Source: a virus
DNA: 23,619 nucleotides
Reading direction: 5' to 3' (one strand)
Virus record (IMG/VR): IMGVR_UViG_3300037882_002544
Coordinates: 1-23,619 of that record
The notes under the pieces were generated by a model. It did not search any database and was not told the origin of the DNA. It worked only from the letters and a program-made list of their open reading frames with translations. A program made the position numbers and the translations under genes. Shown here piece after piece: positions 19,427 through 19,965 of the stretch; the stretch's first letter is position 1; each line of letters begins with the position of its first letter.

Positions 19427-19900
19427 ATGAAACAGTCGGTTTTAAATTTAGCTGCTAGATTTATCTCTCAGCAGTCTTTAGATTCAAAAATTTACATTGG
19501 CACAGATTCCAAACGTAAAGTAGCGTTTAAAGGCGTCTACAATGTAATTTTTACGACTGTTATCATTTGTCATATTGATGGCAAAAAGGGTTGCAAAGTT
19601 TTTGCTGATGTCGAGGTGAAGAGAGATTACCGTGGAGACTTACAAGCCAGATTGCTGGAGGAAGTAGATAATGCAATTAAGTGTTATCAATTGCTCAAGG
19701 ATTTGGTTGACTCACGTGAGATCCAGATTCACCTGGACATCAATTCAAATAAGAAGTTCAAAAGTAATACTGTAGCAAAAGCAGCTCAAGGTTGGGTAAG
19801 AGGAGTATGTGGATTTGATCCAATCTTTAAGCCACATGCTTTTGCTGCTTCGACGGCCGCAGATTTGTATCACCAAAAATATGGATTAATGGATTGTTAG
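19427..19900 (+). CDS. YkuK-type RNase H-fold protein (DUF458)
   Basis: The 157-residue protein fits the YkuK/DUF458 RNase H-like family: KIYIGTDSKRK (Asp27 on the first strand), TVIICHIDGKKG, a long helix LQARLLEEVDNAIKCYQLLK with an acidic residue, IQIHLDINSNKK, and the family-type ending GWVRGVCGFDPIFKPHAFAASTAADLYHQ. In an RNase H fold these acidic residues would bind two metal ions and cut RNA, but activity of this family is not established to my knowledge. It follows the MORN-like gene by 5 nt. Its last nine bases including the TAG stop lie inside the tRNA gene at 19891. Confidence 0.82.
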   Translation: MKQSVLNLAARFISQQSLDSKIYIGTDSKRKVAFKGVYNVIFTTVIICHIDGKKGCKVFADVEVKRDYRGDLQARLLEEVDNAIKCYQLLKDLVDSREIQIHLDINSNKKFKSNTVAKAAQGWVRGVCGFDPIFKPHAFAASTAADLYHQKYGLMDC

Positions 19901-19965
19901 CTTAATGGTAAAGCGTCAGCTTCTAACTCTGAAAGATTTGGGTTCGAGTCCCAAACAATTCACCA
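19891..19965 (+). tRNA. tRNA with apparent CUA (amber) anticodon; Arg(UCU) alternative
   Basis: A 75-nt cloverleaf: acceptor GGATTGT/ACAATTC (one G-T), D-arm GCTT/AAGC with loop AATGGTA, one base, stem TCAGC/TCTGA (four pairs plus a C-T mismatch next to the loop), loop TTCTAAC, variable AAGAT, T-arm TTGGG/CCCAA with TTCGAGT, discriminator A and encoded CCA. In this register T33 is conserved, the variable loop is 5 nt, and the anticodon is CTA (19923-19925). Moving the loop one base to get TCT (Arg) breaks the anticodon stem and spacing. An amber-decoding tRNA is therefore the better reading, though not certain. It begins inside the YkuK-like gene, whose TAG stop is bases 8-10 of the tRNA. Confidence 0.85.

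Follow-up and report, generated by a model that had tools for sequence, protein, structure and literature searches.

A phage tRNA gene with the anticodon CUA and an open 31·39 pair in a T4-like, standard-code fragment

The stretch of viral DNA analyzed here, an IMG/VR record of 23,619 bases (the window), carries a real tRNA gene with the anticodon CUA whose anticodon stem is open at positions 31 and 39, and the gene belongs to a recurrent subset of phage CUA tRNAs that share this open pair. The recurrence of the open pair in phage amber tRNAs is the new element of the analysis. We think it fairly probable that the tRNA decodes UAG in a phage that keeps the standard code, being charged by the host and causing partial readthrough, with the open pair probably tuning that activity. 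It is common for a standard-code phage to encode a tRNA that ought to harm the phage's own translation termination, with no known purpose. A signature that is enriched in phage amber tRNAs, absent from matched Gln(CUG) tRNAs, and seen once in 19 CUA tRNAs of bacterial genomes provides a concrete handle on this question, and would extend to the bottom pair the recent proposal that stop-codon reading changes when the anticodon stem is shortened.

The tRNA(CUA) gene and its reading register

The acceptor end of the tRNA (Table 1) comprises G1-C72, G2·U71, A3-U70, and A73, with CCA encoded in the gene, and the D arm is normal, with GG present, a 7-base D loop, and U20. In the ARAGORN drawing, positions 27-30 pair with 40-43 around the loop UUCUAAC while C31·U39 is left unpaired, so that the anticodon stem has four pairs; every other stem and the T loop are intact. 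The first-pass annotation had placed CTA at the canonical anticodon position with T33 and A37 and had proposed a covariance-model check. ARAGORN indeed calls CUA, with U33 and A37 present, and the Rfam tRNA model accepts the gene. The clean tRNA-Arg(UCU) noted earlier at 16241 is also recovered by both programs. As to its precursor, the tRNA(CUA) shows mixed resemblances: to the Lys profile, to the Trp tRNA of the relative described below, and to the Met/Ile2-like D arm found in Vibrio phages.

Table 1. Features at and around the tRNA(CUA) gene (positions within the window).
Feature	Position	Strand	Evidence
tRNA-Arg(UCU), second of the two tRNAs found in the window	16241..16317	+	ARAGORN; Rfam tRNA model, 63.8 bits
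Upstream gene, RNase H-like fold (PF04308)	19427..19900	+	Pfam, E 2.2e-19
tRNA(CUA) gene, including encoded CCA	19891..19965	+	ARAGORN; Rfam RF00005, 64.5 bits, E 3.8e-12
Anticodon arm UCAGC-UUCUAAC-UCUGA, four pairs, with 31·39 (C·U) open	19916..19932	+	ARAGORN drawing
Anticodon CUA	19923..19925	+	ARAGORN
Small protein, weak similarity to a phage hydrolase family	20120..20434	+	PHROG 3668, E 1e-5

The shifted register was checked because CUUCUAA is also the commonest loop of Arg(UCU) tRNAs, occurring in 31 of 57 among the matches listed, which lends some appeal to the idea that the gene encodes a tRNA-Arg(UCU). This identity is nevertheless highly improbable and was rejected. No paired stem surrounds UCU, upholding the earlier remark that the UCU register breaks the anticodon stem (the C31·U39 mismatch of the CUA register itself had gone unmentioned), positions 26 and 44-48 are spaced as expected for CUA, and U20 stands in place of A20, the ArgRS determinant. 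The same holds for the clustered phage CUA tRNAs with U32 and an open 31·39 (n = 46). Among the matches listed, pairs 28-42, 29-41, and 30-40 are kept in all of them, in varied base combinations, the shifted register could form its 30-38 pair in just 13 of the 46, and A20 is found in 5 of 46, versus 43 of 57 Arg(UCU) tRNAs. The kept pairs and the rarity of A20 point to the CUA register rather than to Arg.

ARAGORN names the gene 'tRNA-Pyl', a label that follows from the anticodon alone. The core of tRNA-Pyl has a short D loop and a 6-bp anticodon stem; the tRNA(CUA) is an ordinary cloverleaf with a 4-bp anticodon stem and a 7-base D loop.

Genomic context

The window appears to be a fragment of a T4-like phage, judging from its gene content: a head maturation protease and a UvsW-like helicase (PHROG), a major capsid protein (tblastn to gp23 proteins), and, from reading the translations, what we take to be gp46/47, clamp, and clamp loader proteins. 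The TAG stop of the PF04308 gene (19900) forms bases 8-10 of the tRNA(CUA), and this 10-base overlap suggests that the two are probably cotranscribed; no sigma-70-like promoter site local to the tRNA was found on its strand. Downstream, the small protein at 20120..20434 has no Pfam match and is, by eye, presumably peptidyl-tRNA hydrolase (Pth2)-like. Profile scans of the genes around the tRNA gave no match to an aminoacyl synthetase among those genes.

At the DNA level, the window has no match among the records of the phage collection. The nearest contig found (L003, 153 kb) has a capsid protein of 69% identity and 35 ARAGORN calls, of which one is a tmRNA and none is CUA. In this relative, at locus L041 (G001:C1:114001-134000), 34 tRNAs, including one with an unclear anticodon, and the tmRNA candidate (tag ANDEYFAPVAMAA) lie in about 14 kb.

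As a side observation, the TROVE/Ro60-like gene at 17281-18707 consists of two ORFs that do not share a frame. Because a single CcrColossus protein of 469 residues matches each of them (at 40% and 39% identity), a -1 frameshift must lie near 17740-17784, whether through sequencing error, decay, or programming.

Recurrence of the open 31·39 pair

Viral contigs were scanned with a degenerate pattern made up of the D arm, six free bases, and YUCUAR. At least 120 loci match, and 109 of the 120 listed have an ARAGORN CUA tRNA. The tRNAs were clustered at 80% identity before pairs were counted, and since clusters are not a phylogeny, the following are not counts of independent losses. Among the matches listed, 31 of 107 phage CUA tRNAs, the present one included, lack a standard pair at 31·39, versus 23 of 473 other tRNAs, nearly all of which come from the loci of the CUA tRNAs (p = 1e-11). 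The contrast is sharper when only tRNAs with U32 are considered, with an open pair in 20 of 31 CUA tRNAs versus 14 of 167 others in the first scan, and, for new clusters only, in 26 of 43 versus 7 of 61 in a second scan (p = 1.5e-7; both among the matches listed). The mismatches in the phage CUA tRNAs are mostly C·A, A·C, C·C, and C·U, and the acceptor and T stems are intact to the same degree as in other tRNAs (again among the matches listed). The carriers are diverse; a gp23 homologue could be detected in three of seven records, and in each case it is distant.

The search itself should not create this effect, since the pattern fixes neither of the two positions and ARAGORN would be expected to favor pairing. 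A control pattern for Gln(CUG), with one anticodon base changed, returned an open pair in 0 of 79 tRNAs, and the CUA tRNAs of bacterial genome contigs showed one in 1 of 19, where just one of the 19 has U32 (both among the matches listed). UCA (opal) tRNAs also occur in viral contigs (L521, L514, and others); an open pair was seen in 3 of 24 of these and in 3 of 7 with U32 among the matches listed, numbers too small to judge. Separately, tRNA-Thr genes in the CUA loci have an open 31·39 (U·U or C·C) in 7 of 20 with UGU and 3 of 8 with CGU anticodons, among the matches listed.

These results bear on whether the gene is a decayed sense tRNA, functionless, whose anticodon and 31·39 pair have drifted. 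Besides the C·U mismatch itself, decay would account for the weak fold of the RNA alone, in which the cloverleaf is not the minimum (z -0.7), and for the failure to find this tRNA in any near relative: searching with the anticodon arm as a pattern returned zero matches, and the nine blastn matches examined were all sense tRNAs. A decaying gene is hard to reconcile, however, with the intact remaining stems, T loop, D-loop GG, and CCA, with an Rfam score of 64.5 bits, or with the same mismatch position in dozens of dissimilar phage CUA tRNAs whose stems are otherwise intact, and we regard decay as unlikely. Instead, the tRNA(CUA) is probably functional and UAG-decoding, if inefficient. It is tempting to go further and see in phage amber tRNAs a functional class where selection has repeatedly favored losing the 31-39 pair (with U32) to set UAG decoding against RF1, which would allow one phage genome to hold both a suppressor and TAG stops; we offer this as a tentative possibility, somewhat short of even.

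TAG stops, genetic code, and readthrough

Five genes in the window end in TAG, at 14650, 16213, 18707, 19421, and 19900. The first of these genes (13799-14650) ends in three consecutive TAG codons (14648-14656), followed by a terminator-like hairpin. The first-pass annotation had drawn support for the tRNA from TAG stops being confined to 14.6-20.1 kb. All five do lie between 14.6 and 19.9 kb, but the range does not reach 20.1 kb, as the ORF at 19978-20154 ends in TGA, and the clustering was rejected as evidence for the tRNA(CUA). The five fall within 11 consecutive genes out of 36 with a post hoc p of about 0.015, which becomes 0.057 without the stop at 19900 that the tRNA body itself makes, and the relative L003, which lacks a CUA tRNA, is similarly biased, with more TAG at its tRNA-array end (15 of 61 ORFs versus 15 of 144; p = 0.016). 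Highly expressed bacterial genes generally avoid UAG (PMC8954436), and TAG-free capsid and replication genes therefore need no suppressor. The TAG distribution is thus explained by ordinary UAG avoidance and by a similar bias in a relative lacking a CUA tRNA.

Within the 23.6 kb, the proposal that a standard-code phage carries a tRNA for decoding amber codons is supported. Here, an intact CUA tRNA coexists with TAG used as a stop, and ORF coverage is 84% under the standard code versus 87% with TAG read; code 15 recoding was rejected for this stretch, where genes are not interrupted by in-frame TAG under table 11. This is a common situation. Among the matches listed from the two scans, 143 of the 145 CUA-tRNA loci long enough to classify look standard-code, and TAG ends 14% of ORFs in the classifiable loci. 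The other two, L061 and L089, are likely code-15 phages, their coding density rising from 0.47 to 0.93 and from 0.57 to 0.81 with TAG read. Standard-code phages with a CUA tRNA have also been published, namely XacN1 (PMC5852040) and RsoM2USA (PMC8504454), so that the plain finding of an amber tRNA is of a common, known kind.

The other part of the earlier interpretation, controlled readthrough during infection, is not supported. It would have the tRNA(CUA) act as a switch that lengthens phage proteins at the C terminus late in infection, and one junction has the right form, as the next gene begins in the frame of the TAG at 18707, its ATG (18732) lying 8 codons farther on. Yet one such junction in five is at chance level, the CcrColossus TROVE homologue ends without such an extension, and reading the remaining TAGs yields random-looking tails of 67, 21, 2, and 29 residues. 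In silico reading of the XacN1 amber stops gave no extensions either (PMC5852040). We consider controlled readthrough quite improbable; a TROVE and MORN-like readthrough fusion was likewise rejected, as no homologue supports it.

Among the matches listed, backup stops within 5 codons in the CUA-tRNA loci follow TAG in 21.5%, TAA in 30.2%, and TGA in 21.4% of cases, and without an excess behind TAG they were rejected as a trace of active suppression. Nor was avoidance of TAG seen in these phages, where it makes up 14% of stops among the matches listed. Any suppression must therefore be weak or harmless.

A more elaborate possibility is an extended superwobble, whereby an open anticodon stem combined with C34 would let the tRNA read UAA besides UAG. 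Superwobble has been proposed for C34 tRNAs with a 4-bp anticodon stem and shown for opening of the top pair with UGA in E. coli, and there is an earlier case of a CUA tRNA-Trp reading UAA (PMC13092985). The known cases, however, open the top pair rather than 31·39, and TAA is not depleted in loci with a 31·39 mismatch among the matches listed (coefficient +0.02, s.e. 0.03), making this reading very improbable. Together with the lack of excess backup stops, the unchanged TAA use suggests that the action of the tRNA(CUA) is weak and UAG-restricted.

Proposed action and amino acid

The tRNA(CUA) would be transcribed together with the upstream PF04308 gene and cut out of the transcript by host RNases. 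A host synthetase would then charge it, and in infected cells the charged tRNA would cause partial readthrough by competing at UAG with the host's RF1. Opening of the 31·39 pair probably tunes the decoding strength or specificity of phage amber tRNAs.

Lysine is tentatively the likeliest amino acid. In E. coli, U35 and A73 make lysine the amino acid of several amber suppressors (PMC9976931), and Lys is, barely, the best isotype profile (-51.3 versus -52.0 for Phe), from a set with a leave-one-out accuracy of 859/1173. The G2·U71 pair, an antideterminant for class II LysRS and a determinant for class I LysRS, argues against the former enzyme and for the latter.

Comparison with known systems

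Like the window, XacN1 and RsoM2USA combine a CUA tRNA with the continued use of TAG as a stop, and target genes are not known for any of them. These are jumbo phages with large tRNA arrays, whereas the present contig is T4-like with two dispersed tRNAs. The amber suppressor tRNAs of code-15 phages (Lak and crAss-like; PMC11210395) share the CUA anticodon, but in-frame TAG recoding is not seen here (84% versus 87% coverage), and the CUA tRNAs of the two recoded-like loci, L061 and L089, have a paired 31-39 where that of the window is open.

Finally, the 4-bp anticodon-stem tRNAs of bacteria and eukaryotes resemble the tRNA(CUA) in having a stem one pair short, and there the shortened stem has been linked to stop-codon readthrough, which is raised in E. 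coli by an opened top pair (PMC13092985). That work does not treat phage tRNAs, no word beginning with 'phage' occurring in its text. Its functional work deals with a tRNA-Trp CCA that is opened at the top pair, 27-43; in the phage CUA tRNA described here one terminal pair of the anticodon stem is likewise open, and it is the bottom one, C31·U39.
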